NCBI RefSeq assembly: GCF_009905375.1
Contig: NW_027417605.1
Span: forward strand, 86,519 to 150,518
DNA: 64,000 nt
DNA from: Apium graveolens
Lineage: Eukaryota; Streptophyta; Magnoliopsida; Apiales; Apiaceae
Direction of reading: 5' to 3'
The translations under genes were made by a program, and so were the position numbers. Position 1 is the stretch's first letter; each line of letters starts with the position of its first letter. Under the pieces are notes generated by a model. That model made no database searches, had not been told where the DNA came from, and saw nothing but the letters and a program-made list of their open reading frames with translations. This document shows positions 8,723-64,000 of this stretch, piece by piece.

Positions 8723-8960
8723 TAAGTCAATTAGGGCCATATTTTGACTCTAATTAACCATGTAAGTCACTCTTCACCATATTAGAGTCTCTTTGCACCC
8801 TATAAGAGTCACTTGCCACCATATATTGGTACAATTTACATGTTAACATCATCTACATGCAATTTAACATCCTTTAACCACCTCTTGGTACCACTTTTAT
8901 ACGAGTCAATTTTGGGCAATATTTTGGATCTAATCAACCATGTAAATCACTCTTCACCAT

Positions 8961-11900
8961 AGTCACTTTGCACCCTATAAGAGTCTCTTGCCACCATATA
9001 TTGGTACAGTTGACCTACTAACATCATATACATGCAAGTCACTCTTCACCATATTAGAGTCTCTTTGTACCCTATAAGAGTCACTTGCCACCATATATTG
9101 GTACAATTTACATGTTAACATCATCTACATGCAATTTAACATCCTTTAACCACCTCTTGGTACCACTTTTATACGAGTCAATTTTGGGCAACATTTTGGA
9201 TCTAATCAACTATGTAAGTCACTCTTCACCATATTAGAGTCACTTTCCACCCTATAAGAGTCTCTTGCCACCATATATTGGTACAATTGATCTATTACCA
9301 TTATATACATGAAATTTCACATCCTTTAACCACCTTACCACTTTTATACAAGTCAATTTAGGGCCATATTTTGACTATAATCAACCATGTAAGTCAATCT
9401 TCACCATATTAAAGTCACTTTGCACCCTATAACAGTCTCTTGCCACCATATATTGGTACAATTGACCTATTAACATCATATACATGCATTTTGACATCCT
9501 TTAACGACCTCTTGGTACCACTTTTATACAAGTCATTTTAGGCCCATATTTTGGCTCTAATCAACCATGCAAGTCACTCTTCACCATATTAGAGTCACTT
9601 TGCACCCTATAAGAGTCACTTGCCACCATGTATTGGTACAATTGACCTTTTAACATCATATACATTCAATTTGATATCCTTTAACCACATCTTGGTACCA
9701 CTTTTATATAAGTCAATTAGGGCCACATTTTGACTCTAATCAACCATGTAAGTCATTCTTCACCATATTAAAGTCCCTTTGCACCCTATAAGAGTCACTT
9801 GCCACCATATAATGGTACAATTGACATGTTAACATCATCTACATGCAATTTAACATCCTTAAACCACCTCTTTGTACCAGTTTTATACGAGTCAATTTTG
9901 GGCAACATTTTCGATCTAATCAACCATGTAAGTCACTGTTCACCATATTAGAGTCACTTTGCACCCTATAAGAGTCTCTGGCCACCATATATTGGTACAA
10001 TTGATCTATTACCATTATATACATGAAATTTCACATCCTTTAACCACCTTACCACTTTTATACAAGTCAATTTAGGGCCATATTTTGACTATAATCAACC
10101 ATGTAAGTCAATCTTCACCATATTAGAGTTACTTTGCACCCTATAAGAGTCTCTTGCCACCATATATTGGTACGATTGACCTTTTACCATCATATACATG
10201 CAATTTGACATTCTATAACCACCTCTTGGTACCACTTTTATACAAGTCAATTTAGGACCATATTTTGGCTCTAATCAACCATGTAAGTCACTCTTCACCA
10301 TATTAGAGTCACTTTGCACCCTATAAGAGTCACTTGCCACCATATATTGGTACAATTGACCTTTTAACATCATATACATTCAATTTGATATCCTTTAACC
10401 ACATCTTGGTACCACTTTTATATAAGTCAATTATGGCCACATTTTGACTCTAATCAACCATGTAAGTCATTCTTCAGCATATTAAAGTCCCTTTGCACCC
10501 TATAAGAGTCACTTGCCACCATATAATGGTACAATTGACATGTTAACATCATCTACATGCAATTTAACATCCTTAAACCAGCTCTTTGTACCAGTTTTAT
10601 ACGAGTCAATTTTGGGCAACATTTTGGATCTAATCAACCATGTAAGTCACCCTTCACCATATTAGAGTCACTTTGCACCCTATAAGAGTCTCTTGCCGCC
10701 ATATATTGGTACAGTTGACCTACTAACATCATATATATGCAATTTGACATCCTTTAACCACCTCTTGGTACCACTTTTATACAAGTCAATTTAGGCCCAT
10801 ATTTTGACTCTAATCAACCATGTAAGTCACTCTTCACCATATTAGAGTCACCTTGCACCCTATAAGTCACTTGCCACCATATATTGCTACAATTGACATG
10901 TTAACATCATCTACATGTAATTTAACATCCTTTAACCACCTCTTGGTACCACTTTTATACGATTCAATTTTAGGAATCATTTTGGCTCTAATCAACCATG
11001 TAAGTCACTCTTCACCATATTAGAGTCACTTTGCACCCTATAAGAGTCTCTTGCCACCATATATTGGTACAATTGATCTATTAACATTATATACATGCAA
11101 TTTGACATCCTTTAACCACCTCTTGGTACCACTTTTATACAAGTCAATTTAGGGCCATATTTTGACTATAATCAACCATGTAAGTCACTCTTCACCATAT
11201 TAGAGTCAGTTTGCACCCTATAAGAGTCTCTTGCCACCATATATTGGTACAATTGACCTATTAACATCATATACTTGCAATTTGACATTCTTTAACCACC
11301 TCTTGGTACCACTTTTATATAAGTCAATTAGGGCCACATTTTGACTCTAATCAACCATGTAAGTCATTCTTCACCAAATTAAAGTCCTTTTGCACCCTAT
11401 AAGAGTCACTTGCCACCATATAATGGTACAATTGACATGTTAACACCATCTACATGCAATTTAACATCCTTTAACCACCTTTTTATACCATTTTTATACG
11501 AGTCAATTTTGGGCAACATTTTGGATCTAATCAACCATGTAAGTCACTCTTCACCATATTAGAGTCACTTTGCATCCTATAAGAGTCACTTGCCACCATA
11601 TATTGGTACAATTGACCTATTAACATCATATACATGCAATTTGACATCCTTTAACCACCTCATGGTACCACTTTTATATAAGTCAATTAGGGCCACATTT
11701 TGACTCTAATTAACCATGTAAGTCACTCTTCACCATATTAGAGTCTCTTTACACCCTATAAGAGTCACTTGCCACCATATATTGGTACAATTTACATGTT
11801 AACATCATCTACATGCAATTTAACATCCTTTAACCACCTCTTGGTACCACTTTTATACGAGTCAATTTTGGGCAACATTTTGGATCTAATCAACTATGTA

Positions 11901-14900
11901 AGTCACTCTTCACCATATTAGAGTCACTTTGCACCCTATAAGAGTCTCTGGCCACCATATATTGGTACAATTGATCTATTACCATTATATACATGAAATT
12001 TCACATCCTTTAACCACCTTACCACTTTTATACAAGTCAATTTAGGGCCATATTTTGACTATAATCAACCATGTAAGTCAATCTTCACCATATTAAAGTC
12101 ACTTTGCACCCTATAAGAGTCTCTTGCCACCATATATTGGTACAATTGACCTATTAACATCATATACATGCAATTTGACATCCTTTAACGACCTCTTGGT
12201 ACCACTTTTATACAAGTCATTTTAGGCCCATATTTTGGCTCTAATCAACCATGCAAGTCACTCTTCACCATATTAGAGTCACTTTGCACCCTATAAGAGT
12301 CACTTGCCACCATGTATTGGTACAATTGACCTTTTAACATCATATACATTCAATTTGATATCCTTTAACCACATCTTGGTACCACTTTTATATAAGTCAA
12401 TTAGGGCCACATTTTGACTCTAATCAACCATGTAAGTCATTCTTCACCATATTAAAGTCCCTTTGCACCCTATAAGAGTCACTTGCCACCATATAATGGT
12501 ACAATTGACATGTTAACATCATCTACATGCAATTTAACATCCTTAAACCACCTCTTTGTACCAGTTTTATACGAGTCAATTTTGGGCAACATTTTGGATC
12601 TAATCAACCATGTAAGTCACTCTTCACCATATTAGAGTCACTTTGCACCCTATAAGAGTCTCTGGCCACCATATATTGGTACAATTGATCTATTACCATT
12701 ATATACATGAAATTTCACATCCTTTAACCACCTTACCACTTTTATACAAGTCAATTTAGGGCCATATTTTGACTATAATCAACCATGTAAGTCAATCTTC
12801 ACCATATTAGAGTTACTTTGCACCCTATAAGAGTCTCTTGCCACCATATATTGGTACGATTGACCTTTTACCATCATATACATGCAATTTGACATTCTAT
12901 AACTCTTGGTACCACTTTTATACAAGTCAATTTAGGCCCATATTTTGGCTCTAATCAACCATGTAAGTCACTCTTCAGCATATTAGAGTCACTTTGCACC
13001 CTATAAGAGTCTCTTGCCACCATATATTGGTACAGTTGACCTACTAACATCATATACATGCAAGTCACTCTTCACCATATTAGAGTCTCTTTGTACCCTA
13101 TAAGAGTCACTTGCCACCATATATTGGTACAATTTACATGTTAACATCATCTACATGCAATTTAACATCCTTTAACCACCTCTTGGTACCACTTTTATAC
13201 GAGTCAATTTTGGGCAACATTTTGGATCTAATCAACTATGTAAGTCACTCTTCACCATATTAGAGTCACTTTCCACCCTATAAGAGTCTCTTGCCACCAT
13301 ATATTGGTACAATTGATCTATTACCATTATATACATGAAATTTCACATCCTTTAACCACCTTACCACTTTTATACAAGTCAATTTAGGGCCATATTTTGA
13401 CTATAATCAACCATGTAAGTCAATCTTCACCATATTAAAGTCACTTTGCACCCTATAACAGTCTCTTGCCACCATATATTGGTACAATTGACCTATTAAC
13501 ATCATATACATGCATTTTGACATCCTTTAACGACCTCTTGGTACCACTTTTATACAAGTCATTTTAGGCCCATATTTTGGCTCTAATCAACCATGCAAGT
13601 CACTCTTCACCATATTAGAGTCACTTTGCACCCTATAAGAGTCACTTGCCACCATGTATTGGTACAATTGACCTTTTAACATCATATACATTCAATTTGA
13701 TATCCTTTAACCACATCTTGGTACCACTTTTATATAAGTCAATTAGGGCCACATTTTGACTCTAATCAACCATGTAAGTCATTCTTCACCATATTAAAGT
13801 CCCTTTGCACCCTATAAGAGTCACTTGCCACCATATAATGGTACAATTGACATGTTAACATCATCTACATGCAATTTAACATCCTTAAACCACCTCTTTG
13901 TACCAGTTTTATACGAGTCAATTTTGGGCAACATTTTCGATCTAATCAACCATGTAAGTCACTGTTCACCATATTAGAGTCACTTTGCACCCTATAAGAG
14001 TCTCTGGCCACCATATATTGGTACAATTGATCTATTACCATTATATACATGAAATTTCACATCCTTTAACCACCTTACCACTTTTATACAAGTCAATTTA
14101 GGGCCATATTTTGACTATAATCAACCATGTAAGTCAATCTTCACCATATTAGAGTTACTTTGCACCCTATAAGAGTCTCTTGCCACCATATATTGGTACG
14201 ATTGACCTTTTACCATCATATACATGCAATTTGACATTCTATAACCACCTCTTGGTACCACTTTTATACAAGTCAATTTAGGACCATATTTTGGCTCTAA
14301 TCAACCATGTAAGTCACTCTTCACCATATTAGAGTCACTTTGCACCCTATAAGAGTCACTTGCCACCATATATTGGTACAATTGACCTTTTAACATCATA
14401 TACATTCAATTTGATATCCTTTAACCACATCTTGGTACCACTTTTATATAAGTCAATTATGGCCACATTTTGACTCTAATCAACCATGTAAGTCATTCTT
14501 CAGCATATTAAAGTCCCTTTGCACCCTATAAGAGTCACTTGCCACCATATAATGGTACAATTGACATGTTAACATCATCTACATGCAATTTAACATCCTT
14601 AAACCAGCTCTTTGTACCAGTTTTATACGAGTCAATTTTGGGCAACATTTTGGATCTAATCAACCATGTAAGTCACCCTTCACCATATTAGAGTCACTTT
14701 GCACCCTATAAGAGTCTCTTGCCGCCATATATTGGTACAGTTGACCTACTAACATCATATATATGCAATTTGACATCCTTTAACCACCTCTTGGTACCAC
14801 TTTTATACAAGTCAATTTAGGCCCATATTTTGACTCTAATCAACCATGTAAGTCACTCTTCACCATATTAGAGTCACCTTGCACCCTATAAGTCACTTGC

Positions 14901-17012
14901 CACCATATATTGCTACAATTGACATGTTAACATCATCTACATGTAATTTAACATCCTTTAACCACCTCTTGGTACCACTTTTATACGATTCAATTTTAGG
15001 AATCATTTTGGCTCTAATCAACCATGTAAGTCACTCTTCACCATATTAGAGTCACTTTGCACCCTATAAGAGTCTCTTGCCACCATATATTGGTACAATT
15101 GATCTATTAACATTATATACATGCAATTTGACATCCTTTAACCACCTCTTGGTACCACTTTTATACAAGTCAATTTAGGGCCATATTTTGACTATAATCA
15201 ACCATGTAAGTCACTCTTCACCATATTAGAGTCAGTTTGCACCCTATAAGAGTCTCTTGCCACCATATATTGGTACAATTGACCTATTAACATCATATAC
15301 TTGCAATTTGACATTCTTTAACCACCTCTTGGTACCACTTTTATATAAGTCAATTAGGGCCACATTTTGACTCTAATCAACCATGTAAGTCATTCTTCAC
15401 CAAATTAAAGTCCTTTTGCACCCTATAAGAGTCACTTGCCACCATATAATGGTACAATTGACATGTTAACACCATCTACATGCAATTTAACATCCTTTAA
15501 CCACCTTTTTGTACCATTTTTATACGAGTCAATTTTGGGCAACATTTTGGATCTAATCAACCATGTAAGTCACTCTTCACCATATTAGAGTCACTTTGCA
15601 TCCTATAAGAGTCACTTGCCACCATATATTGGTACAATTGACCTATTAACATCATATACATGCAATTTGACATCCTTTAACCACCTCATGGTACCACTTT
15701 TATATAAGTCAATTAGGGCCACATTTTGACTCTAATTAACCATGTAAGTCACTCTTCACCATATTAGAGTCTCTTTACACCCTATAAGAGTCACTTGCCA
15801 CCATATATTGGTACAATTTACATGTTAACATCATCTACATGCAATTTAACATCCTTTAACCACCTCTTGGTACCACTTTTATACGAGTCAATTTTGGGCA
15901 ACATTTTGGATCTAATCAACTATGTAAGTCACTCTTCACCATATTAGAGTCACTTTGCACCCTATAAGAGTCTCTGGCCACCATATATTGGTACAATTGA
16001 TCTATTACCATTATATACATGAAATTTCACATCCTTTAACCACCTTACCACTTTTATACAAGTCAATTTAGGGCCATATTTTGACTATAATCAACCATGT
16101 AAGTCAATCTTCACCATATTAAAGTCACTTTGCACCCTATAAGAGTCTCTTGCCACCATATATTGGTACAATTGACCTATTAACATCATATACATGCAAT
16201 TTGACATCCTTTAACGACCTCTTGGTACCACTTTTATACAAGTCATTTTAGGCCCATATTTTGGCTCTAATCAACCATGCAAGTCACTCTTCACCATATT
16301 AGAGTCACTTTGCACCCTATAAGAGTCACTTGCCACCATGTATTGGTACAATTGACCTTTTAACATCATATACATTCAATTTGATATCCTTTAACCACAT
16401 CTTGGTACCACTTTTATATAAGTCAATTAGGGCCACATTTTGACTCTAATCAACCATGTAAGTCATTCTTCACCATATTAAAGTCCCTTTGCACCCTATA
16501 AGAGTCACTTGCCACCATATAATGGTACAATTGACATGTTAACATCATCTACATGCAATTTAACATCCTTAAACCACCTCTTTGTACCAGTTTTATACGA
16601 GTCAATTTTGGGCAACATTTTGGATCTAATCAACCATGTAAGTCACTCTTCACCATATTAGAGTCACTTTGCACCCTATAAGAGTCTCTGGCCACCATAT
16701 ATTGGTACAATTGATCTATTACCATTATATACATGAAATTTCACATCCTTTAACCACCTTACCACTTTTATACAAGTCAATTTAGGGCCATATTTTGACT
16801 ATAATCAACCATGTAAGTCAATCTTCACCATATTAGAGTTACTTTGCACCCTATAAGAGTCTCTTGCCACCATATATTGGTACGATTGACCTTTTACCAT
16901 CATATACATGCAATTTGACATTCTATAACTCTTGGTACCACTTTTATACAAGTCAATTTAGGCCCATATTTTGGCTCTAATCAACAATGTAAGTCACTCT
17001 TCAGCATATTAG
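8961..17012 (+). repeat. 4026-bp higher-order tandem duplication
   Basis: Copy 1 is 8961-12986 and copy 2 is 12987-17012. The offset is exactly 4026 bp at every marker tested: the truncated monomer ATACATGCAAGTCAC (CATGCAAGTC at 9031 and 13057), the variant CCCTATAACAG (marker base 9421 and 13447), and the shortened CTATAACTCTTGG (12901 and 16927). Both copies also share the TTTTCGATC variants. I found very few differences by eye (one is TTTTTATACC against TTTTTGTACC near 11485 and 15511). The unit holds about 22 monomers plus a truncated one. Confidence 0.9.
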
Positions 17013-18412
17013 AGTCACTTTGCACCCTATAAGAGTCACTTGCCACCATATATTGGTACAATTGACCTTTTAACATCATATACATTCAATTTGATATCCT
17101 TTAACCACATCTTGGTACCACATTTATATAAGTCAATTATGGCCACATTTTGACTCTAATCAACCATGTAAGTCATTCTTCACCATATTAAAGTCCATTT
17201 GCACCCTATAAGAGTCACTTGCCACCATATAATGGTACAATTGACATGTTAACATCATCAACATGCAATTTAACATCCTTAAACCACCTCTTTGTACCAG
17301 TTTTATACGAGTCAATTTTGGGCAACATTTTGGATCTAATCAACCATGTAAGTCACTCTTCACCATATTAGAGTCACTTTGCACCCTATAAGAGTCTCTG
17401 GCCACCATATATTGGTACAATTGATCTATTACCATTATATACATGAAATTTCACATCCTTTAACCACCTTACCACTTTTATACAAGTCAATTTAGGGCCA
17501 TATTTTGACTATAATCAACCATGTAAGTCAATCTTCACCATATTAGAGTTACTTTGCACCCTATAAGAGTCTCTTGCCACCATATATTGGTACGATTGAC
17601 CTTTTACCATCATATACATGAAATTTGACATTCTATAACCACCTCTTGGTACCACTTTTATACAAGTCAATTTAGGCCCATATTTTGGCTCTAATCAACC
17701 ATGTAAGTCACTCTTCAGCATATTAGAGTCACTTTGCACCCTATAAGAGTCACTTGCCACCATATATTGGTACAATTGACCTTTTAACATCATATACATT
17801 CAATTTGATATCCTTTAACCACATCTTGGTACCACATTTATATAAGTCAATTATGGCCACATTTTGACTCTAATCAACCATGTAAGTCATTCTTCACCAT
17901 ATTAAAGTCCCTTTGCACCCTATAAGAGTCACTTGCCACCATATAATGGTACAATTGACATGTTAACATCATCAACATGCAATTTAACATCCTTAAACCA
18001 CCTCTTTGTACCAGTTTTATACGAGTCAATTTTGGGCAACATTTTGGATCTAATCAACCATGTAAGTCACTCTTCACCATATTAGAGTCACTTTGCACCC
18101 TATAAGAGTCACTTGCCACCATGTATTGGTACAATTGACCTTTTAACATCATATACATTCAATTTGATATTCTTTAACCACATCTTGGTACCACTTTTAT
18201 ATAAGTCAATTAGGGCCACATTTTGACTCTAATCAACCATGTAAGTCATTCTTCACCATATTAAAGTCCCTTTGCACCCTATAAGAGTCACTTGCCACCA
18301 TATAATGGTACAATTGACATGTTAACATCATCAACATGCAATTTAACATCCTTAAACCACCTCTTTGTACCAGTTTTATACGAGTCAATTTTGGGCAACA
18401 TTTTGGATCTAA
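16985..18412 (+). repeat. 714-bp higher-order repeat, two copies
   Basis: A four-monomer segment repeats with an offset of 714 bp. TCAGCATATT is at 17001 and 17715, and CATTTATATAAG is at 17121 and 17835. The CATCAACATGCAATT variant lies at about 17257 and 17971, and once more about 360 bp later (18331). Confidence 0.75.
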
Positions 18413-21400
18413 TCAACCATGTAAGTCACTCTTCACCATATTAGAGTCACTTTGCACCCTATAAGAGTCTCTGGCCACCATATATTGGTACAATTGATCT
18501 ATTACCATTATATACATGAAATTTCACATCCTTTAACCACCTTACCACTTTTATACAAGTCAATTTAGGGCCATATTTTGACTATAACCAACCATGTAAG
18601 TCAATCTTCACCATATTAGAGTCAGTTTGCACCCTATAAGAGTCTCTTGCCACCATATATTGGTACGATTGACCTTTTACCATCATATACATGCAATTTG
18701 ACATTCTATAACCACCTCTTGGTACCACTTTTATACAAGTCAATTTAGGCCCATATTTTGGCTATAATCAACCATGTAAGTCACTCTTCACCATATTAGA
18801 GTCACTTTGCACCCTATAAGAGTCACTTGCCACCATATATTGGTACAATTGACCTTTTAACATCATATACATTCAATTTGATATCATTTAACCACATCTT
18901 GGTACCACATTTATATAAGTCAATTATGGCCACATTTTGACTCTAATCAACCATGTAAGTCATTCTTCAGCATATTAAAGTCCCTTTCCACCCTATAAGA
19001 GTCACTTGCCACCATATAATGGTACAATTGACATGTTAACATCATCTACATGCAATTTAACATCCTTAAACCACCTCTTTGTACCAGTTTTATACGAGTC
19101 AATTTTGGGCAACATTTTGGATCTAATCAACCATGTAAGTCACTCTTCACCATATTAGAGTCACTTTGCACCCTATAAGAGTCTCTTGCCGCCATATATT
19201 GGTACAGTTGACCTACTAACATCATATACATGCAATTTGACATCCTTTAACCACCTCTTGGTACCACTTTTATACAAGTCAATTTAGGCCCATATTTTGA
19301 CTCTAATCAACCATGTAAGTCACTCTTCACCATATTAGAGTCACCTTGCACCCTATAAGTCACTTGCCACCATATATTGGTACAATTGACATGTTAACAT
19401 CATCTACATGCAATTTAACATCCTTTAACCACCTCTTGGTACCACTTTGATACGATTCAATTTTGGGAATCATTTTGGCCCTAATCAACCATGTAAGTCA
19501 CTCTTCACCATATTAGAGTCACTTTGCACCCTATAAGAGTCTCTTGCCACCATATATTGGTACAGTTAACCGACTAACATCATATACATGCAATTTGACA
19601 TCTTTTAACCACCTCTTGGTACCACTTTTATACAAGTCAATTTAGACCTATATTTTGACTCTAATCAACCATGTAAGTCACTCTTCACCATATTAGAGTC
19701 ACTTTGCACCCTATAAGAGTCACCTGCCACCATATAATGGAACAATTGACATGTTAACATCATCTACACAATTTAACATCCTTTAACCACCTCTTTGTAC
19801 CAGTTTCATACGAGTCAATTTTGGGCAACATTTTGGATCTAATCAACTATGTAAGTCACTCTTCACCATATTAGAGTCGCTTTGCACCCTATAAGAGTCT
19901 CTTACCACCATATATTGGTACAATTGATCTATTAACATCATATACATGCAATTTGACATCCTTTAACCACCTCTTGGTACCACTTTTATACAAGTCAATT
20001 TAGGGCCATATTTTGACTATAATCAACAATGTAAGTCACTCTTCACCATATTAGAGTCACTTTGCACCCTATAAGAGTCTCTTGCCACCATATATTGGTA
20101 CAATTGACCTATTAATACATGCAATTTGACATCCTTTAACCACCTCTTGGTACCACTTTTATACAAGTCATTTTAGGCCCATATTTTGGCTCTAATCAAC
20201 CATGTAACTCACTCTTCACCATATTAGAGTCACTTTGCACCCTATAAGAGTCACTTGCCACCATGTATTGGTACAATTAACCTTTTAACATCATATACAT
20301 TCAATTTGATATCCTTTAACCACATCTTGGTACCACTTTTATATAAGTCAATTATGGCCACATTTGGACTCTAATGAACCATGTAAGTCATTCTTCACCA
20401 TATTAAAGTCCCTTTGCACCCTATAAGAGTCACTTGCCACCATATAATGGTACAATTGACATTTAACATCATCTACATGCAATTTAACATCCTTTAACCA
20501 CCTCTTTGTACCAGTTTTATACGAGTCAATTTTGGGCAACATTTTGGATCTAATCAACCATGTAAGTCACTCTTCAACATATTAGAGTCACTTTGCACCC
20601 TATAAGAGTCTCTTGCCACCATATATTGGTACGGTTGACCTATTAACATCATATACATGCAATTTGACATCCTTTAACCACCTCTTGGTACCACTTTTAT
20701 ACAAGTCAATTTAGGCCCATATTTTGGCTCTAATCAACCATGTAAGACACTCTTCGCCATATTAGAGTCACTTTGCACCCTATAAGAGTCACTTACCATC
20801 ATATATTGGTACAATTGACCTTTTAACATCATATACATTCAATTTGATATCCTTTAACCACATCTTGGTACCACTTTTATATAAGTCAATTAGGGCCACA
20901 TTTTGACTATAATCAACCATGTAAGTCACTCTTCACCATATTAGAGTCACTTTGCACCCTATAAGAATCTCTTGCCACCATATATTGGTACAATTGACCT
21001 ATTAACATCATATACATGCAATTTGACATTCTTTAACCACATATATGTACCACTTTTATACAAGTCAATTGACTCTTCACCATATTATAGTCACTTTGCA
21101 CCCTATAAGAGTCACTTGCCACCATGTATTGGTACAATTGACCTTTTAACATCATATACATTCAATTTGATATCCTTTAACCACATCTTGGTACCACTTT
21201 TATACAAGTCAATTAGGGCCACATTTTGACTCTAATCAACCATGTAAGTCATTCTTCACCATATTAAAGTCCCTTTGCACCCTATAAGAGTCACTTGCCA
21301 CCATATAATGGTACAATTGACATGTTAACATCATCTACATGCAATTTAACATCCTTTAACCACCTCTTTGTACCAGTTTTATACGAGTCAATTTTTGGCA

Positions 21401-21452
21401 ACATTTTGGATCTAATCAACCATGTAAGTCACTCTTCACCATATTAGAGTCA

Positions 21453-21475
21453 ATTTTAACCAAAATGGTGAAGAG
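21453..21475. other. Hairpin-like spacer at satellite inversion point
   Basis: These 23 bp separate + satellite from - satellite. They begin with ATTTTAACCAAAAT, a 5-bp inverted stem with a four-base loop, followed by GGTGAAGAG. The arms on both sides are reverse complements: the left arm ends ...TTAGAGTCA at 21452, and the right arm starts TGACTCTTATATGG at 21476. Confidence 0.85.
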
Positions 21476-24300
21476 TGACTCTTATATGGTGAAGAGTGAC
21501 TTACATGGTTGATTAGATCCAAAATGTTGCCCAAAATTGACTCGTATAAAACTGGTACAAAGAGGTGGTTAAAGGATGTTAAATTGCATGTAGATGATGT
21601 TAACATGTCAATTGTACCATTATATGGTGGCAAGTGACTCTTATAGGGTGCAAAAGGACTTTAATATGGTGAAGAATGACTTACATGGTTGATTAGAGTC
21701 AAAATGTGGCCCTAATTGACTTATATAAAAGTGGTACCAAGATGTGGTTAAAGGATATCAAATTGAATGTATATGATGTTAAAAGGTAAATTGTACCAAT
21801 ATATGGTGGCAAGTGACTCTTATAGGGTGCAAAATGACTCTAATATGGCGAAGAGTGTCTTACATGGTTGATTAGAGCCAAAATATGGGCCTAAATTGAC
21901 TTGTATAAAAGTGGTACTAGGAGGTGGTTAAAAGATGTCAAATTGCATGTATATGATGTTAATAGGTCAACTGTACCAATATATGGTGGCAAGAGAGTCT
22001 TATAGGGTGCAAAGTGACTATAATATGGTGAAGAGTGACTTACATGGTTGATTAGATCAAAAATGTTTCCCAAAATTGACTCATATAAAACTGGTACAAA
22101 GAGGTGGTTAAAGGATGTTAAATTTCATGTAGATGATGTTAACATGTCAATTGTACCATTATATGGTGGCAAGTGACTTTTATAGGGTGCGAAGGGACTT
22201 TAATATGGTGAAGAATGACTTACATGGTTGATTAGAGTCAAAATGTGGCCCTAATTGACTTATATAAAAGTTGTACCAAGATGTGGTTAAAGGATATCAA
22301 ATTAAATGTATATGATGTTAAAAGGTCAATTGTACCAATACATGGTGGCAAGTGACTCTTATAGGGTGCAAAGTGACTCTAATATGGTGAAGAGTGACTT
22401 ACATGGTTGATTAGAGCCAAAATATGGGCCTAAAATGACTTGTATAATAGTAGTACCAAGAGGTGGTTAAAGGATGTCAAATTGCTTGTATATGATGTTA
22501 ATATGTCAATTGTACCAATATGTGGTGGAAAGAAACTCTTATAGGGTGCAAAGTAACTCTAATATGGTGAAAAAAGGCTTACATGGTTGATTATAGTCAA
22601 AATATGGCCCTAAATTGACTTTTATAAAAGTGGTACCAAGAGGTGGTTAAAGGATATCAAATTGCATGTATATGATGTTAATAGGTCAATTGTACCAATA
22701 TATGGTGGCCAGTGACTCTTATAGGGTGCAAAGTGACTCTAATATGGTGAAGAATGACTTACATGGTTGATTAGAGTCAAAATATGGGCCTAAATTGACT
22801 TGTATAATAGTGGTACCAAGAGGTGGTTAATGGATGTAAAATTACATGTATATGATGTTAGTAGGTCAACTGTACCAATATATGGTGGCAAGAGACTCTT
22901 ATAGGGTGCAAAGTGACTCTAATATGGTGAAGAGTGACTTACATGGTTGATTAGATCCAAAATGCTGCCCAAAATTGAGTCGTATAAAACTGGTACAAAG
23001 AGGTGGTTAAAGGATGTTAAATTGCAGGTAGATGATGTTAACATGTCAATTGTACGTTAAATTACATGTATATGATGTTAACATGTCAATTGTACCATTA
23101 TATGGTGGCAAGTGACTCTTATAGGGTGCAAAGGGATTTTAATATGGTGAAGAATGACTTACATGGTTGATTAGAGTCAAAATGTGGCCCTAATTGACAT
23201 ATATAAAAGTGGTACCAAGATGTGGTTAAAGGATATCAAATTGATTGTATATGATGTTAAAAGGTCAATTGTACCAATATATGGTGGCAAGTGACTCTTA
23301 TAGGGTGCAAAGTGACTGTAATATGGTGAAGAGTGACTTACATGGTTGATTAGAGCCAAAATATGGGCCTAAATTGACTTGTATAAAAATGGTACCAAGA
23401 GGTGGTTAAAGGGTGTCAAATTGCATGTATATGATGTTAAAAGGTCAATTGTACCATTATATGGTGGCAAGTGACTCTTATAGGGTGTAAAGTGACTCTA
23501 ATATGGTGAAGAGTGTCTTACATGGTTGATTAGAGCCAAAATATGGGCCTAAATTGACTTGTATAAAAGTGGTTCCAAGAGGTGGTTAAAGGATGTCAAA
23601 TAGCATGTATATGATGTTAATAGGTCAACTGTACCAATATATGGTGGCAAGAGACTCTTATAAGGTGCAAAGTGACTCTAATATGGTGAAGAGTGACTTA
23701 CATGGTTGATTAGATCCAAAATGTTGACCCAAAATTGACTCGTATAAAACTGGTACAAAGAGGTGGTTAAAGGATGTTAAATTGCATGTAGATGATGTTA
23801 ACATGTCAATTTTATGATTATATGGTGGCAAGTGACTCTTATAGGGTGCAAATGGACTTTAATATGGTGAAGAATGATTTACATGGTTGATTAGAGTCAA
23901 AATGTTGCCCTAATTGACTTATATAAAAGTGGTACCAAGATGTGGTTAAAGGATATCAAATTGAATGTATATGATGTTAAAAGGTCAATTGTACCAATAT
24001 ATGGTGGCAGACTCTTATAGGGTGCAAAGTGACTCTAATATGGTGAAGATTGACTTACATAGTTGATTAGATCCAAAATGTTGCCCAAAATTGACTCGTA
24101 TGAAACTGGTACAAAGAGGTGGTTAAAGGATGTTAAATTGCATGTAGATGATGTTAACATGTCAATTGTTCCATTATATGGTGGCAAGTGACTCTTATAG
24201 GCTGCAAAGAGACTCTAATCTGGTGAAGATTGACTTACATGGTTGATTATAGTCAAAATATGGGCCTAAATTGAGTTGTATAAAAGTGGTACCAAGAGGT
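21476..24300 (-). repeat. Satellite block II, - orientation
   Basis: About 16 monomers of the same family in reverse orientation (landmarks GGTGAAGAGTGACTTACATG and GGTTGATTAGA). The order of variants mirrors the end of block I. A type-A monomer comes first, then a type B carrying the TAAGACACTCTTCGCC marker (read on the minus strand), then C, A, B with the CATGTATTGG marker, and C with AAGTCATTTTAGG. The block ends at 24300 inside a monomer, at ACCAAGAGGT. It contains no gene. Confidence 0.95.
23016..23095 (-). repeat. Local 40-bp tandem duplication inside a monomer
   Basis: Units 23016-23055 and 23056-23095 both begin GTTAAATT and end TCAATTGTAC. They differ at a few positions. The first has type-A bases throughout (GTAGATGATG); the second is a hybrid carrying the B/C-like GTATATGATG before the type-A TTAACATGTC. 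The extra 40 bp makes this monomer longer than its neighbours. Confidence 0.85.
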
Positions 24301-25825
24301 ATAGGGGTCGAGACAACTGAAGGAATACGAGATTAGATATCCTACTCATGACCTTGAGCTCGCGGCAATAGTATTTGCCTTAAAAATTTGGAGGGACTAC
24401 TTGTATGGAGAGAAGTGCGAGATTTTCACAGACCATAAGAGCCTCAAGTACATATTTATGCAGAAAGAGCTCAACATGCGCCAGAGGAGATGGTTAGAAC
24501 TAATTAAGGACTATGATTGTGAGATTCTCTATCATCCAGGGAAAGCCAATGTGGTGGCTGATGACCTTAGTAGAAAGGAAAGACTCAGAATGATAACGAC
24601 TTCGGAAGAATTGATAAGGGATTTTGAGAGAATGGAAATAGAAGTAAAGGTAACCGGAACCGGAACTGAAAAGCTTTTTGAGATCTCAATGCAGCCAGAG
24701 TTATTGGAAAAGATCAGATTGTGCCAAGAGAAAATAATGAATGAAGGCAGAGAGTCAATGACTAGAGAGGAAATCCATACTGAGGAAGATGATAAAGGGA
24801 TAATGAGGTACTCCTACTGGATTTGGGTTCCGAATGTTCAAGAGCTTAAAAATAAGATTTTGGATGAAAGCCATAGTTCAAGGTATTCCATTCACCCGGG
24901 AAGTACCAAGATGTATAGGGATTTGAAGGAATATTACTGGTGGCCCAACATGAAGAGGGATGTAGCAGAATGGGTGAGCAAATGTTTGACTTGCCAAAGA
25001 GTAAAGGCAGAGCACCAGAGACCCAGTGGACTTTTACGACCCCTGGAGATTCCCGAATGGAAATGGGAACAGATAGCGATGGATTTTGTTGTAGGCTTGC
25101 CAAGGACGAAGGCCAATCATGACGCCATATGGGTAATTATAGACCGACCGACAAAGTCAGCTCATTTCATTCCTATCAATGAGAGATACATAGTCGATAG
25201 ACTGGTGGACATTTACCTTAAAGAAATAGTGACGCGACATGGAGTCCCAGCGTCCATTGTCTCGGACCGAGACCCCAGGTTCAACTCCAAATTTTGGAGG
25301 AGCTTTCAAGAATGTGCGGGGACCAAGTTAAATATGAGTACCGCGTACCATCCCCAGACGGATGGGCAGAGTGAAAGGACCATCCAGACACTAGAGGATA
25401 TGTTGAGAGTCTGTGCAATAGACCTTAAAGGAAGTTGGGATGACCACTTGCCGTTGATCGAGTTTTCTTATAACAATAGCTTTCATGCTAGCATCGGAAT
25501 GCCGCCTTATGAGGCCCTGTACGGAAGAAGGTGTCGATCTCCCTTATACTGGGTTGAAGTAGGAGAGCGGAAGATGCTCGGACCCGAAGTGGTCCAAAGA
25601 ACCAAAGACATAGTGGATCTTATCAGAGGACGGCTTGTAGCAGCCCAAGACAGACAGAAGAAATATGCAGACCTAGCCCGAAAGGACAAGGAATATGAAG
25701 TCGGGGACTTAGTACTGCTAAAGGTATCCCCTTGGAATGGATTAATGAGGTTCGGAAAGAAAGGAAAACTAAGCCCAAGGTACATTGGACCTTTTAAGAT
25801 ATTAAGACGGATTGGAAAGTTAGCT
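24301..25825 (+). pseudogene. Ty3/gypsy pol fragment: RNase H-integrase
   Basis: This is part of a retrotransposon polyprotein, open from about 24305 to a TAA at 25826-25828 that is supplied by the satellite. It has no start of its own; the first Met codon is at 24401. Numbering from that Met, the order is: end of RNase H (TDHKSL with D11, VVAD with D54), a linker, the integrase zinc finger H158, H165, C195, C198, the integrase core with D228, D289 and E325 (a perfect D,D35E spacing), then the C-terminal domain with GPF at 463-465. It stops at GKLA, where relatives continue into the chromodomain. Reverse transcriptase, gag, LTRs and target duplications are absent. Both ends abut satellite, in opposite orientations. 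The catalytic residues and open frame suggest recent capture, but the fragment cannot act alone. It is related to, and better preserved than, the pol remnants at 44.3-49.4 kb. Confidence 0.93.
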
Positions 25826-26325
25826 TAAGAGTCACTTGCCACCATATATTGGTACAATAACCTATTAACATCATATACATGCAATTTGACATCCTTTAAC
25901 CACCTCTTTGTACCAATTTCATACGAGTCAATTTTGGGCAACATTTTGGATGTAATCAACTATGTAAGTCACTCTTCACCATATTAGAGTCACTTTGCAC
26001 CCTATAAGAGTCACTTGCCAGCATATATTGGTACAATTGACCTATTAACATCATATACATGCAATTTGATATCTTTTAACCACCTCTTGGTACCACTTTT
26101 ATACCAGTCAATTTAGGGCCATATTTTGACTCTAATCAACCATGTAAGTCACTCTTCACCATATTAGAGTCACTTTGCACCCTATATGAGTCTCTTGCCA
26201 CCATATACTGGTACAATTGACCTATTAACATCATATACTTGTAATTTGACATCTTTTAACCACCTCTATGTACCACTTTTATACAAGTCAATTTAGGCCC
26301 ATATTTTGGCTCTAATCAACCATGT

Positions 26326-28479
26326 AAGTCATTCTTCACCATATTAGAGTCACTTTGCACCCTATAAGAGTCACTTGCCACCATATATTGGTATAATTGA
26401 CATGTTAACATCATCTACATGCAATTTAACATCCTTTAACCACCTCTTGGTACTACTCTTATACGAGTCAATTTTGGGAAACATTTTGGCTCTAATCAAC
26501 AACGTAAGTCACACTTCACCATATTAGAGTCACTTTGCACCCTATAAGAGTCACTTGCCACCATATATTAGTACAATTGACCTATTAACATCATATACAT
26601 GCAATTTGACATCTTTTAACCACCTCTTGGTACCACTTTTATATAAGTCAATTAGGGCCACATATTGACTCTAATCAACCATGTAAGTCACTCTTCACCA
26701 TATTAGAGTCACTTTGCACCCTATAAGAGTCACTTGCCACCATATATTGGAACAATTGACCTATTAACATCATATACATGCAATTTGACATCTTTTAACC
26801 ACCTCTCGGTACCACTTTTATAGAGTCAATTTTGGGAAACATTTTGGCTCTAATCAACCATTTAAATTACTCTTCACCATATTTAAGTCACTTTGCACCC
26901 TATAAGAGTCTCTTGCCACCATATATTGGTACAATTGATCTATTAACTTCGTATACATGCAATTTGACATCCTTTAACCACCTCTCTGTACCACTTTTAT
27001 ACAAGTCAATTTAGGACCATATTTGGGCTCTAATCAACCATGTAAGTCACTCTTCACCATATTAGAGTCACTTTGCACCATATAAGAGTCACTTGCCACC
27101 ATATATTGGTACAATTGACATGTTAACATCATCTACATGCAATTTAACATCCTTTAACCAACTCTTGGTACCACTTTTATACGAGTCAATTTTGGGAAAC
27201 ATTTTGGCTCTAATCAACAATGTAAGTCACTCTTCACCATATTAGAGTCCCTTTGCACCCTATAAGAGTCAGTTGCCACCATATATTGGTACAATTGACC
27301 TATTAACATCATATACATGCAATTTGACATCTTTTAACCACCTCTTGGTACCACTTTTATATAAGTCAATTAGGGCCACATTTTGATTCTAATCAACCAT
27401 GTAAGTCATTCTTCACCATATTAGAGTCACTTTGCACCCTATAAGAGTCACTTGCCACCATATATTGGTATAATTGACATGTTAACATCATCTACATGCA
27501 ATTTAACATCCTTTAACCACCTCTTGGTACTACTCTTCTACGAGTCAATTTTGGGAAACATTTTGGCTCTAATCAACAACGTAAGTCACACTTCACCATA
27601 TTAGAGTCACTTTGCACCCTATAAGAGTCACTTGCCACTATATATTAGTACAATTGACCTATTAACATCATATACATGCAATTTGACATCTTTTAACCAC
27701 CTCTTGGTACCACTTTTATATAAGTCAATTAGGGCCACATTTTGACTCTAATCAACCATGTAAGTCACTCTTCACCATATTAGAGTCACTTTGCACCCTA
27801 TAAGAGTCACTTGCCACCATATATTGGAACAATTGACCTATTAACATCATATACATGCAATTTGACATCTTTTAACCACCTCTCGGTACCACTTTTATAG
27901 AGTCAATTTTGGGAAACATTTTGGCTCTAATCAACCATTTAAATTACTCTTCACCATATTTAAGTCACTTTGCACCCTATAAGAGTCTCTTGCCACCATA
28001 TATTGGTACAATTGATCTATTAACTTCGTATACATGCAATTTGACATCCTTTAACCACCTCTCTGTACCACTTTTATACAAGTCAATTTAGGACCATATT
28101 TGGGCTCTAATCAACCATGTAAGTCACTCTTCACCATATTAGAGTCACTTTGCACCATATAAGAGTCACTTGCCACCATATATTGGTACAATTGACATGT
28201 TAACATCATCTACATGCAATTTAACATCCTTTAACCAACTCTTGGTACCACTTTTATACGAGTCAATTTTGGGAAACATTTTGGCTCTAATCAACAATGT
28301 AAGTCACTCTTCACCATATTAGAGTCCCTTTGCACCCTATAAGAGTCAGTTGCCACCATATATTGGTACAATTGACCTATTAACATCATATACATGCAAT
28401 TTGACATCTTTTAACCACCTCTTGGTACCACTTTTATATAAGTCAATTAGGGCCACATTTTGATTCTAATCAACCATGT
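26326..28479 (+). repeat. 1077-bp higher-order repeat, two copies
   Basis: Six monomers are duplicated, about 26326-27402 and 27403-28479. The offset of 1077 bp holds for GTAAGTCACACTTC (26504 and 27581) and for the short-monomer marker TTTTATAGAGTCAATTTTGG (about 26817 and 27894). The copies are close to identical. Confidence 0.85.
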
Positions 28480-29354
28480 AAGTCACTCTTCACCATATTA
28501 GAGTCACTTTGCACCCTATAAGAGTCACTTGCCACCATATATTGGTACAATTGACCTATTAACATCATATACATGCAATTTGACATCTTTTAACCACCTC
28601 TCGGTACCACTTTTATACGAGTCAATTTTGGGAAACATTTTGGCTCTAATCAACCATGTAAATCACTCTTCACCATATTTAAGTCACTTTGCACCCTATA
28701 AGAGTCACTTGCCACCATATATTGGTACAATTAACCTATTAACATCATATACATGCAATTTGACATCCTTTAACCACCTCATTGTACCAGTTTCATACGA
28801 GTCAATTTTGGGCAACATTTTGGATGTAATCAACTATGTAAGTCATTCTTCACCATATTAGAGTCACTTTGCACCCTATAAGAGTCACTTTCCAGCATAT
28901 ATTGGTACAATTGACCTATTAACATCATATACATGCAATTTGATATCTTTTAACCACCTCTTGGTACCACTTTTATACAAGTCAATTTAGGGCCATATTT
29001 TGACTCTAATCAACCATGTAACTCACTCTTCACAATATTAGAGTCACTTTGCACCCTATACGAGTCTCTTGCCACCATATATTGGTACAATTGACCTATT
29101 AACATCATATACATGTAATTTGACATCCTTTAACCACCTCTATGTACCACTTTTATACAAGTCAATTTAGGCCCATATTCTGGCTCTAATCAACCATGTA
29201 AGTCATTCTTCACCATATTAGAGTCACTTTGCACCCTATAAGAGTCACTTGCCACCATATATTGGTATAATTGACATGTTAACATCATCTACATGCAATT
29301 TAACATCCTTTAACCACCTCTTGGTACTACTTTTATACGAGTCAATTTTGGGAA

Positions 29355-32300
29355 ACATTTTGGCTCTAATCAACAACGTAAGTCACTCTTCACCATATTA
29401 GAGTCACTTTGCACCCTATAAGAGTCACTTGCCACCATATATTGGTACAATTGACCTATTAACATCATATACATGCAATTTGACATCTTTTAACCACCTC
29501 TTGGTACCACTTTTATATAAGTCAATTAGGGCCACATTTTGACTCTAATCAACCATGTAAGTCACTCTTCACCATATTAGAGTCACTTTGCACCCTATAA
29601 GAGTCACTTGCCACCATATATTGGAACAATTGACCTATTAACATCATATACATGCAATTTGACATCTTTTAACCACCTCTCGGTACCACTTTTATAGAGT
29701 CAATTTTGGGAAACATTTTGGCTCTAATCAACCATTTAAATCACTCTTCACCATATTTACGTCACTTTGCACCCTATAAGAGTCTCTTGCCACCATATAT
29801 TGGTACAATTGATCTATTAACTTCGTATACATGCAATTTGACATCCTTTAACTACCTCTCTGTACAACTTTTATACAAGTCAATTTAGGACCATATTTGG
29901 GCTCTAATCAACCATGTAAGTCACTCTTCACCATATTAGAGAAACTTTGCACCATATAAGAGTCACTTGCCACCATATATTGGTACAATTGACATGTTAA
30001 CATCATCTACATGCAATTTAACATCCTTTAACCAACTCTTGGTACCACTTTTATACGAGTCAATTTTGGGAAACATTTTGGCTCTAATCAACCATGTAAG
30101 TCACTTCACCATATTTAAGTCACTTTACTCCATATAAGAGTCACTTGCCACCATATATTGGTACAAGTAACCTATTAACATCATATACATGCAATTTGAC
30201 ATCCTTTAACCACCTCTTTGTACCAGTTTCATACGAGTCAATTTTGGGCAACATTTTGGATGTAATCAACTATGTAAGTCACTCTTCACCATATTAGAGT
30301 CACTTTGCACCCTATAAGAGTCACTTGCCACCATATATTGGTACAATTGACCTATTAACATCATATACATACAATTTGACATCTTTTAACCACCTCTTGG
30401 TACCACTTTTATATAAGTCAATTAGGGCCACATTTTGACTCTAATCAACCATGTAAGTCACTCTTCACCAAATTATAGTCACTTTGCACCCTATAAGAGT
30501 CACTTGCCACCATATATCGGTGCAATTGACCTATTAACATCATATACATGCAATTTGACATCTTTTAACCAACTCTTGTTACCACTTTTATATAAGTCAA
30601 TTAGGGCCACATTTTGACTCTAATCAACCATGTAAGTCACTCTTCACCATATTAGAGTCACTTTGCACCCTATAAGAGTCAGTTGCCACCATATATTGGT
30701 ACAATTGACCTATTAACATCATATACATGCAATTTGTCATCTTTTAACCACCTCTTGCTACCAATTTTATACGAGTCAATTTTGGGAAACATTTTGGCTC
30801 TAATCAACCATTTAAATCACTCTTCCCCATATTTAAGTCACTTTGCACCCTATAAGAGTCACTTGCAACCATATATTGGTACAATTGACCTATTAACATC
30901 ATATACATGCAATTTGACATCCTTTAACCACCTCTTGGTACCACTTTTATATAAGTCAATTAGGGCCACATTTTGACTCTAATCAACCATGTAAGTCACT
31001 CTTCACCATATTAGAGTCACTTTGCACCATATAATAGTCACTTGCCACCATATATTGGTATAATTGACATGTTAACATCATCTACATGCAATTTAACATC
31101 CTTTAACCAACTCTTGGTACCACTTTTATACGAGTCAATTTTGGGAAACATTTTGGCTCTAATCAACATTGTAAGTCACTCTTCACCATATTAGAGTCAC
31201 TTTGCACCCTATAAGAGTCAGTTGCCACCATATATTGGTACAATTGACCTATTAACATCATATACATGCAATTTGACATCTTTTAACCACCTCTTGGTAC
31301 CACTTTTATATAAGTCAATTAGGGCCACATTTTGACTCTAATCAACCATGTAAGTCACTCTTCACCATATTAGAGTCACTTTGCACCCTATAAGAGTCAC
31401 TTGCCACCATATATTGGTACAATTGACATGTTAACATCATCTACATGCAATTTAATGTCCTTTAACCACCTGTTGGTACCACTTTTATACGAGTCAATTT
31501 TGGGAAACATTTTGGCTCTAATCAACCATGTAAGTCACTCTTCACCATATTTAAGTCACTTTGCTCCATATAAGAGTCACTTGCCACCATATATTGGTAC
31601 AAGTAATCTATTAACATCATATACATGCAATTTGACATCCTTTAACCACCTCTTTGTACAAGTTTCATACGAGTCAATTTTGGGCAACATTTTGGATGTA
31701 ATCAACTATGTAAGTCACTCTTCACCATATTAGAGTCACTTTGCACCCTATAAGAGTCACTTGCCACCATATATTGGTACAATTGACCTATTAACATCAT
31801 ATACATACAATTTGACATCTTTTAACCACCTCTTGGTACCACTTTTATATAAGTCAATTAGGGCCACATTTTGACTCTAATCAATCATGTAAGTCACTCT
31901 TCACCATATTAGAGTCACTTTGCACCCTATAAGAGTCACTTGTCACCATATATTGGTGCAGTTGACTATTAACATCATATACATGCAATTTGACATCTTT
32001 CAACCAACTCTTGGTACCACTTTTATATAAGTCAATTAGGGCCACATTTTGACTCTAATCAACCATGTAAGTCACTCTTCACCATATTAGAGTCACTTTG
32101 CACCCTATAAGAGTCACTTGCCACCATATATTGGTGCAATTGACTATTAACATCATATACATGCAATTTGACATCTTTCAACCAACTCTTGGTACCACTT
32201 TTATATAAGTCAATTAGGGCCACATTTTGACTCTAATCAACCATGTAAGTCACTCTTCACCATATTAGAGTTACTTTGCACCCTATAAGAGTCACTTGCC

Positions 32301-35050
32301 ACCATATATTGGTGCAATTGACTATTAACATCATATACATGCAATTTGACATCTTTCAACCAACTCTTGGTACCACTTTTATATAAGTCAATTAGGGTCA
32401 CATTTTGACTCTAATCAACCATGTAAGTCACTCTTCACCATATTAGAGTCACTTTGCACCCTATAAGAGTCAGTTGCCACCATATATTGGTACAATTGAC
32501 ATGTTAACATCATATACATGCAATTTGAAATCTTTTAACCACCTCTTGGTACCACTTTTATATAAGTCAATTATGGCAACATTTTGGCTCTAATCAACAA
32601 CGTAAGTCACTCTTCACCATATTAGAGTCACTTTGCACCCTATAAGAGTCACTTGCCACCATATATTGGTACAATTGACCTATTAACATCATATACATGC
32701 AATTTGACATCTTTTAACCACCTCTTGGTACCACTTTTATATAAGTCAATTAGGGCCACATTTTGACTCTAATCAACCATGTAAGTCACTCTTCACCATA
32801 TTAGAGTCACTTTGCACCCTATAAGAGTCACTTGCCACCATATATTGGAACAATTGACCTATTAACATCATATACATGCAATTTGACATCTTTTAACCAC
32901 CTCTCGGTACCACTTTTATAGAGTCAATTTTGGGAAACATTTTGGCTCTAATCAACCATTTAAATCACTCTTCACCATATTTACGTCACTTTGCACCCTA
33001 TAAGAGTCTCTTGCCACCATATATTGGTACAATTGATCTATTAACTTCGTATACATGCAATTTGACATCCTTTAACTACCTCTCTGTACAACTTTTATAC
33101 AAGTCAATTTAGGACCATATTTGGGCTCTAATCAACCATGTAAGTCACTCTTCACCATATTAGAGAAACTTTGCACCATATAAGAGTCACTTGCCACCAT
33201 ATATTGGTACAATTGACATGTTAACATCATCTACATGCAATTTAACATCCTTTAACCAACTCTTGGTACCACTTTTATACGAGTCAATTTTGGGAAACAT
33301 TTTGGCTCTAATCAACCATGTAAGTCACTTCACCATATTTAAGTCAGTTTACTCCATATAAGAGTCACTTGCCACCATATATTGGTACAAGTAACCTATT
33401 AACATCATATACATGCAATTTGACATCCTTTAACCACCTCTTTGTACCAGTTTCATACGAGTCAATTTTGGGCAACATTTTGGATGTAATCAACTATGTA
33501 AGTCACTCTTCACCATATTAGAGTCACTTTGCACCCTATAAGAGTCACTTGCCACCATATATTGGTACAATTGACCTATTAACATCATATACATACAATT
33601 TGACATCTTTTAACCACCTCTTGGAACCACTTTTATATAAGTCAATTAGGGCCACATTTTGACTCTAATCAACCATGTAAGTCACTCTTCACCATATTAT
33701 AGTCACTTTGCACCCTATAAGAGTCACTTGCCACCATATATTGGTGCAATTGACCTATTAACATCATATACATGCAATTTGACATCTTTTAACCAACTCT
33801 TGTTACCACTTTTATATAAGTCAATTAGGGCCACATTTTGACTCTAATCAACCATGTAAGTCACTCTTCACCATATTAGAGTCACTTTGCACCCTATAAG
33901 AGTCAGTTGCCACCATATATTGGTACAATTGACCTATTAACATCATATACATGCAATTTGTCATCTTTTAACCACCTCTTGCTACCAATTTTATACGAGT
34001 CAATTTTGGGAAACATTTTGGCTCTAATCAACCATTTAAATCACTCTTCCCCATATTTAAGTCACTTTGCACCCTATAAGAGTCACTTGCAACCATATAT
34101 TGGTACAATTGACCTATTAACATCATATACATGCAATTTGACATCCTTTAACCACCTCTTGGTACCACTTTTATATAAGTCAATTAGGGCCACATTTTGA
34201 CTCTAATCAACCATGTAAGTCACTCTTCACCATATTAGAGTCACTTTGCACCATATAATAGTCACTTGCCACCATATATTGGTATAATTGACATGTTAAC
34301 ATCATCTACATGCAATTTAACATCCTTTAACCAACTCTTGGTACCACTTTTATACGAGTCAATTTTGGGAAACATTTTGGCTCTAATCAACATTGTAAGT
34401 CACTCTTCACCATATTAGAGTCACTTTGCACCCTATAAGAGTCAGTTGCCACCATATATTGGTACAATTGACCTATTAACATCATATACATGCAATTTGA
34501 CATCTTTTAACCACCTCTTGGTACCACTTTTATATAAGTCAATTAGGGCCACATTTTGACTCTAATCAACCATGTAAGTCACTCTTCACCATATTAGAGT
34601 CACTTTGCACCCTATAAGAGTCACTTGCCACCATATATTGGTACAATTGACATGTTAACATCATCTACATGCAATTTAATGTCCTTTAACCACCTGTTGG
34701 TACCACTTTTATACGAGTCAATTTTGGGAAACATTTTGGCTCTAATCAACCATGTAAGTCACTCTTCACCATATTTAAGTCACTTTGCTCCATATAAGAG
34801 TCACTTGCCACCATATATTGGTACAAGTAATCTATTAACATCATATACATGCAATTTGACATCCTTTAACCACCTCTTTGTACAAGTTTCATACGAGTCA
34901 ATTTTGGGCAACATTTTGGATGTAATCAACTATGTAAGTCACTCTTCACCATATTAGAGTCACTTTGCACCCTATAAGAGTCACTTGCCACCATATATTG
35001 GTACAATTGACCTATTAACATCATATACATACAATTTGACATCTTTTAAC
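29355..35050 (+). repeat. 3224-bp higher-order repeat, two copies
   Basis: An eighteen-monomer unit at about 29355-32578 is followed by a partial copy at 32579 to about 35050. The offset of 3224 bp is constant for CAACAACGTA (29371 and 32595) and for rare variants near 29706/32930, 30435/33659, 30683/33907 and 31401/34625. A further 1436-bp (eight-monomer) re-duplication starts inside it: CTTGGAACCAC is at about 33623 and 35059, and similarity runs to about 35575. Confidence 0.82.
31900..32420 (+). repeat. Homogenised triplet of 178-bp monomers
   Basis: Three consecutive, nearly identical monomers carry TTGGTGCA, TTGACTATTAACATC and CTTTCAACCAACTC. The same triplet recurs at about 36915-37430 and 39620-40140. 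The first monomer has TTGTCACC and GTGCAGTTG and the third has TAGAGTTAC, so the triplet was copied as a unit. Confidence 0.8.
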
Positions 35051-35579
35051 CACCTCTTGGAACCACTTTTATATAAGTCAATTAGGGCCACATTTTGACT
35101 CTAATCAACCATGTAAGTCACTCTTCACCATATTATAGTCACTTTGCACCCTATAAGAGTCACTTGCCACCATATATTGGTGCAATTGACCTATTAACAT
35201 CATATACATGCAATTTGACATCTTTTAACCAACTCTTGTTACCACTTTTATATAAGTCAATTAGGGCCACATTTTGACTCTAATCAACCATGTAAGTCAC
35301 TCTTCACCATATTAGAGTCACTTTGCACCCTATAAGAGTCAGTTGCCACCATATATTGGTACAATTGACCTATTAACATCATATACATGCAATTTGTCAT
35401 CTTTTAACCACCTCTTGCTACCAATTTTATACGAGTCAATTTTGGGAAACATTTTGGCTCTAATCAACCATTTAAATCACTCTTCCCCATATTTAAGTCA
35501 CTTTGCACCCTATAAGAGTCACTTGCAACCATATATTGGTACAATTGACCTATTAACATCATATACATGCAATTTGTCA

Positions 35580-44292: not shown

Positions 44293-44293
44293 G

Positions 44294-44305: not shown

Positions 44306-44309
44306 AAAA

Positions 44310-47940: not shown

Positions 47941-47944
47941 TCTT

Positions 47945-49780: not shown

Positions 49781-49807
49781 CATCATCTCTGAGGTTTATA
49801 ACGCTTA

Positions 49808-63675: not shown

Positions 63676-64000
63676 TCTAATATGGTGAAGAGTGACTTAC
63701 ATGGTTGATTAGAGCCAAAATGTTTCCCAAAATTGACTCGTATAAAAATGGTACCAAGAGGTGGTTAAAGGATGTTAAATTGCATGTAGATGATGTTAAC
63801 ATGTTAATTGTACCAATATATGGTGGCAAGTGACTCTTATAGGGTGCCAAGTGACTCTAATATGGTGAAGAGTGACTTACATGGTTGATTAGAGTCAAAA
63901 TGTAGCCCTAATTGACTTATTTAAAACTGGTACCAAGAGGCGGTTAAGATATGTCAAATTGCATGTATATGATGTTATTGGTCAATTGGTACCAATTTAT

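Follow-up and report, generated by a model that had tools for sequence, protein, structure and literature searches.

Satellite arrays are already known to contain inversions, strand changes and palindromes, and fold-back inverted duplications are known too (PMC13081366, PMC3907307, PMC12046899, PMC11062924); the comparisons made here refer to excerpts of these reports. The satellites of Tribolium madens have inversion sites at which oppositely oriented subarrays meet, with diverged subunits and predicted stems of 58 and 98 bp (PMC13081366). Human fold-back inverted duplications, large duplications found in patients, have spacers of 766-70,466 bp in the 21 that were sequenced (PMC3907307). Large inversions occur in primate alpha-satellite arrays, one in an orangutan measuring 3.2 Mb (PMC11062924), inversions also lie in and around centromeres of Salicaceae (PMC12046899), and the orientation of plant satellite arrays has been recorded in nanopore reads (PMC7004042). 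Here we describe a palindrome of satellite monomers in a 64-kb stretch of the Apium graveolens genome (contig NW_027417605.1; this whole stretch is the window), centred at position 21464 of the window, which probably arose as an inverted duplication within the array.

As at the macro-dyad symmetries of T. madens, opposite satellite subarrays meet at this locus and a long hairpin is predicted (PMC13081366). The T. madens inversion sites occur in thousands of conserved copies, whereas the 64-kb plant window has one mirror site, whose inverted arm ends at a piece of a retroelement, unlike the T. madens sites as the excerpted account presents them (PMC13081366). The locus resembles human fold-back duplications in having an inverted copy beside its source and a spacer between the two, and perhaps in the short inverted matches at its turn; it differs in its 23-bp spacer, against a minimum of 766 bp among the sequenced human cases, and in that the copy is of 2.8 kb and lies within a satellite array (PMC3907307). 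Like the primate (PMC11062924) and Salicaceae (PMC12046899) cases, it is a change of orientation in or around satellite arrays seen in a long-read assembly; unlike the large inversions described in the primate excerpt (PMC11062924), its mirror-order junction is resolved monomer by monomer. Strand switches in satellites have mostly been reported at large scale, and at this locus the turn, the register, the loss of uniformity and the change of domain can each be read by monomer. As a single locus it serves well as a worked example but does not amount to a discovery; if such junctions generally mark where homogenisation stops, they would offer a simple, testable rule for the origin of satellite domains. 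Neither this satellite nor this junction was met in our literature searches, which were not designed to find one locus; excerpts of a study on Oenanthe (PMC12120883) contain no monomer sequence. Of 7954 database matches, the 120 listed include Apium graveolens at up to 81% identity, with 75% of the query covered, and Tanacetum at up to 64%.

Most of the window is taken up by a ∼180-bp satellite that contains sub-repeats of 21 bp. We cut it into 291 satellite monomers and compared the 286 of at least 90 bp, leaving out five shorter than 90 bp. The satellite lies in four stretches, whose limits we set ourselves; M and R are parted by a pol fragment, and a retroelement (about 42672-53960) lies between R and E. 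The stretches and the spacer at the strand switch are:

1..21452, plus strand: L, the left satellite domain, ∼180-bp monomers of three types (A, B and C) in a higher-order arrangement; 121 of them are at least 90 bp long.
21453..21475, no strand: spacer at the strand switch, 23 bp, ATTTT-AACC-AAAAT-GGTGAAGAG.
21476..24300, minus strand: M, the right inverted arm; 15 monomers of at least 90 bp, 14 of them nearest to an L monomer.
25822..42664, plus strand: R, the second plus-strand satellite domain, with a higher-order make-up unlike that of L; start approximate.
53963..64000, minus strand: E, the fourth satellite stretch, on the opposite strand to R.

The plus-strand satellite ends in ...TTAGAGTCA at 21452 and the minus-strand satellite begins with TGACTCT... 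at 21476, so that the array reverses, as the original prediction had it, at about 21464, the midpoint. The 23-bp spacer with a 5-bp hairpin stem that had also been claimed can be read directly in the sequence at 21453-21475, with ATTTT and AAAAT on either side of AACC. The short inverted matches at the turn, read in the rearranged sequence, are ATTTT/AAAAT and GAGTCA/TGACTC. Three words of the spacer were followed through the window: TAGAGTCAATTTT has six other plus-strand sites, all in R, CCAAAATG is frequent in the reverse-complemented satellite, and AACCAAAATGG has a single occurrence. A spacer of short satellite-like words from either strand would fit stepwise copying of short pieces.

Folded as single-stranded DNA, the 131-nt centre has an energy of -60.8 kcal/mol, compared to a shuffle mean of -10.9, and none of 200 shuffles was as low; the lowest-energy fold does not form the ATTTT/AAAAT stem. 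The opposite subarrays meet at an inversion site that is able, by this predicted fold, to form a long hairpin. The strength of the fold merely follows from the palindrome and is no evidence of function, and we propose no cellular function for the palindrome.

The mirror order of variant monomers described in the original prediction is present, types A, B and C running alike outward from the centre in both arms. In the right arm the order outward is A (21505), B (21685, with TAAGACACTCTTCGCC), C (21864), A (22044), B (22224, with CATGTATTGG) and a C-like monomer (22403, with AAGTCATTTTAGG); in the left arm it is A (21244), two extra monomers (21082 and 20921), B (20742), C (20562), A (20383), B (20204) and C (20031). 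The features that define the arms are:

17881..21452, plus strand: left arm of the palindrome, aligned outward from the centre; its left limit was set by us from the monomer path.
20742..20920, plus strand: left copy of a doubly marked monomer, with TAAGACACTCTTCGCC.
21685..21863, minus strand: right copy of the doubly marked monomer, with TAAGACACTCTTCGCC.
20921..21243, plus strand: two shortened extra monomers of 161 and 162 bp, unpaired in the right arm; a 323-bp gap in the alignment.
22943..23162, minus strand: a 220-bp monomer of the right arm with a 40-bp internal tandem duplication (23016-23095).

Anchored at the centre and with monomer-sized gaps allowed, the arms align with 2629 of 2750 bases identical (95.6%), 121 mismatches and nine gaps. 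Taken outward in blocks of 180 bases, identity is highest in the first three (0.983, 0.978 and 0.972), and later blocks lie at 0.939-0.972 except for one at 0.906 and a short last one at 0.900. Outward from the centre, homology between the arms can be traced leftward as far as about 17881 and rightward as far as about 24239; the predicted span of 20200..22750 does contain the mirror and falls short of the arms as they align. The left arm had been said to hold about two extra monomers, which is correct for 20921-21243, where a local tandem duplication (period 144, 20928-21214) overlaps the extras. In all, its extra sequence comes to about 820 bp in three blocks (323, 164+14 and 318 bp). A fold-back sequencing read as the source of the palindrome was rejected, since near-identical arms would be expected of it and these arms have 121 mismatches and nine gaps. 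Base error hardly explains the differences between the arms, because two blocks within L agree at 3744 of 3746 bases.

One variant marks both arms. Within the window TAAGACACTCTTCGCC occurs only at 20743 (plus) and 21862 (minus), and the two rare changes of the marked monomer occur together only in monomers 20742 and 21685 among the 286. The original prediction had named several marker monomers shared by the arms; that with TAAGACACTCTTCGCC is indeed limited to the two arms, but CATGTATTGG and AAGTCATTTTAGG, with 10 plus-strand sites each, all in the left array, are array-wide higher-order variants and were ruled out as markers of the duplication. The private monomer bears also on whether the junction could be an assembly chimera, made by joining at 21464 two contigs that carry this satellite on opposite strands. 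False joins are a recognised risk in assembling satellites, and near-identical blocks in L reach 3.7 kb, but only 23 bp separates the arms, which keep one monomer phase and have a private monomer in common, and we consider a chimera quite unlikely.

The monomers of the right arm have a mean best identity of 0.968 to L, 0.937 to R and 0.933 to E. We found no near-perfect source of M in any stretch of L, in keeping with the value of 0.968. Whether the arms correspond in register was assessed at two levels. At the base level the same alignment was anchored at each equivalent point of L and R having 4 kb to its left (171 anchors), and the centre ranked first in three of four gap settings. At the monomer level, with all 15 right-arm monomers, the centre ranked first of 121 in six of eight settings; it did so in six of eight with the inner seven monomers and in five of eight with the inner five. 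In four of the eight settings the outer eight monomers, taken alone, had their best placing at 19135, which is on the mirror path. With the marked monomer removed the centre still ranked first in both settings that were rerun. Shuffling the monomer order of M gave a maximum of 0.598 in 200 trials, compared to a real best score of 0.679. Control blocks of 15 monomers chose the same anchor once in 200 (E 1/41, R 0/79, L 0/80). At the control switch between R and E (42.7/54.0 kb) we found no mirror, the last three anchors of R ranking 36-71 of 94 for the inner 15 monomers of E. A fixed-shape shift test gave 0.9553 at the centre and 0.9318 elsewhere; we gave it little weight because its path had been fitted to the centre.

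By a modest margin, then, the inverted copy is homologous to the adjacent sequence in mirror register, with stiff gap settings favouring other registers. In most settings (rank 1 in 3/4 and 6/8; controls 1/200) the arms match each other better than they match other parts of the array, so that the duplication passes the sequence check that had been proposed for it. The register test, the controls and the absence of a mirror at the R/E switch support an inverted duplication as opposed to two unrelated arrays abutting, and the latter was rejected on the 14 of 15 right-arm monomers nearest to L together with the register that fits the centre.

Several results weigh against a mirror duplication. 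At the base level the centre fell to rank 5 in the stiffest gap setting, and even at the loosest its lead was small (2515 vs 2478) and needed monomer-sized gaps. At the monomer level it ranked 3 and 66 in the two stiffest identity settings, 5 and 35 in the remaining two settings for the inner seven monomers, and 7, 10 and 21 in the remaining three for the inner five. The register is less well supported in the outer half of the arms: the outer eight monomers placed best at 7869, far off the mirror path, in the other four settings. BLAST, which does not cross long gaps, places the right arm as a whole best on 17821-20590 (91.3%), in a different register. Only 5 of the 15 mirror pairs have a partner that is best or tied best among the 121 L monomers, and one right-arm monomer (22583) is nearest to R (0.967, vs 0.961 to L). 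The first change of the marked monomer is also found singly in right-arm monomer 23342, and the second singly in 1433 and 3221. Counting as rare an allele with 2-12 copies, M has 28, several of which it has in common with L monomers outside the mirror pairs. Such sharing with non-partners would be expected if L turned over further after the duplication, yet it lowers certainty. Support for the mirror is thus weaker than the original prediction implied, because the left array consists of higher-order repeats and many registers score nearly alike.

The same periodicity underlies another explanation, in which a neighbouring stretch of the same higher-order array was simply inverted and the mirror order is a by-product of the A-B-C repeat. 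Other in-phase registers of L do score nearly as well, or better in stiff settings, and two of the markers named in the original prediction are array-wide variants. The centre register nevertheless wins most settings, control blocks avoid its anchor, and the monomer with two rare changes is confined to the inner parts of the two arms; a plain inversion is therefore unlikely.

The arms are also where the satellite loses its uniformity, measured as the mean nearest-copy identity per bin of eight monomers. In L from 1433 to 18420 the bin means are 0.995-1.000, with 0.12 private changes per monomer in the first bin and none in the others. Between 18421 and 21243 they drop to 0.977-0.987, and the bins of M are the lowest of all (0.967-0.971). 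Private changes number 1.40 per monomer in M and 0.13 in L, a difference reached in none of 20,000 label shuffles. Uniformity also dips outside the palindrome: in the first bin of L (0.989), in the first eight monomers of R (0.987), in an interior bin of R (0.988) and one of E (0.987), and in the last fourteen monomers of R (0.976). The first eight monomers of E, beside the retroelement, stand at 0.997. Array edges are expected to be less uniform, and a special role of the palindrome as a barrier, as distinct from an ordinary edge effect, is possible. As a barrier, the inverted segment would let L and R homogenise separately, because a short inverted segment cannot undergo unequal exchange with the plus-strand arrays on either side, and would have helped to create or keep the boundary between them; we regard this as doubtful.

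Taken together, these results make it probable that the palindrome is an old fold-back or template-switch inverted duplication in the satellite array, situated at a domain boundary, and that its arms later lost collinearity partly by tandem gains in L. Fold-back repair or template switching is a fair reading of its origin. We infer the following sequence of events and reason for the low uniformity. The end of a plus-strand array, broken or stalled, would have folded back near 21452, or copying would have switched there to the opposite strand, and about 2.8 kb of the adjoining array would have been copied back in reverse. The inverted copy would have been joined, in the same event or later, to the retroelement pol piece and to another plus-strand satellite domain. 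The reversed arm may then have escaped homogenising turnover and gathered private changes; we propose that it escaped because it is short and wrongly oriented for unequal exchange with its neighbours. The extra monomers of the left arm at 20921-21243 would have been gained by tandem duplication after the arms had formed. We rejected a substitution-rate clock for the arms, which turnover and paralogy make unreliable.

At the far end of the inverted arm the satellite gives way to a retroelement fragment:

24305..25821, plus strand: internal fragment of a Ty3/gypsy pol gene, with satellite directly on both sides; ends approximate.

Its domains are, in order, the end of RNase H, an integrase zinc-binding domain, the integrase core and the start of an SH3-like domain (Pfam, 24401-25825), the integrase core match lying under the curated cut-off (23.1 vs 32.6 bits). 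Because satellite adjoins it directly on both sides, the fragment is a piece truncated within pol, unlike an ordinary insertion of a whole element. The first eight monomers of R, which follow it, have identities of 0.987 to R and 0.946 to L. Monomer make-up thus changes across the fragment, so that two satellite domains meet where the palindrome and the pol piece lie. The fragment has an open frame of 505 codons (24305-25819), with a stop at 24302-24304, at the junction. The chance of meeting no stop under random changes is 0.22 at 2.2%, one lineage's share of 4.4%, and 0.053 at 4.4%, so that the open frame would be mildly unlikely if the fragment were as old as the arms, as a single duplication and joining event would have it. 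The frame hints, weakly, that the fragment may be younger than the arms.

The presence of retroelement sequence at the strand switches raises a further explanation, that gypsy elements in opposite orientation recombined or repaired a break and so made the switches, the arms being secondary. A gypsy element or piece does lie between the strands at two of the three switches (24.3-25.8 kb and 42.7-54.0 kb), the element at 42.7-54.0 kb being called gypsy solely by its match to the pol fragment (76.5% and 79.0% over two parts). There is, however, no element within the switch at 21464, and at 76.5% and 79.0% the pol piece and the element are too distant to be halves of one recent exchange. We consider a retroelement-mediated origin very unlikely and retain an inverted duplication as the source of the arms.

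Elsewhere in the window, L, R and E form three domains that differ in higher-order make-up, each highly uniform inside. L contains a direct duplication of 3746 bp (9217-12962 and 13243-16988, 4 kb apart) whose copies agree at 3744 bases, which points to very recent turnover in L.

Where the satellite turns from plus (R) to minus (E) there is a long terminal repeat (LTR) retroelement on the minus strand (42672-53960), whose two LTR copies are 99.4% identical over 1622 bp. Its right LTR seems, by eye, to extend to about 49830, with TG..CA ends and with TGGTATCAGAGC, which we take by eye to be primer-site-like. Among the listed open reading frames, none of at least 120 aa is on the element's own strand in 44300-49800. 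Near-identical LTRs and the lack of a long frame suggest, from sequence features, a recently moved element that would be unable to make its own proteins. The left LTR looks cut at the junction with R, where CTTT is common to both sides. The last R monomer before the LTR (42651-42675) is without CACCATAT (8 bp), and the resulting string is unique in the window.

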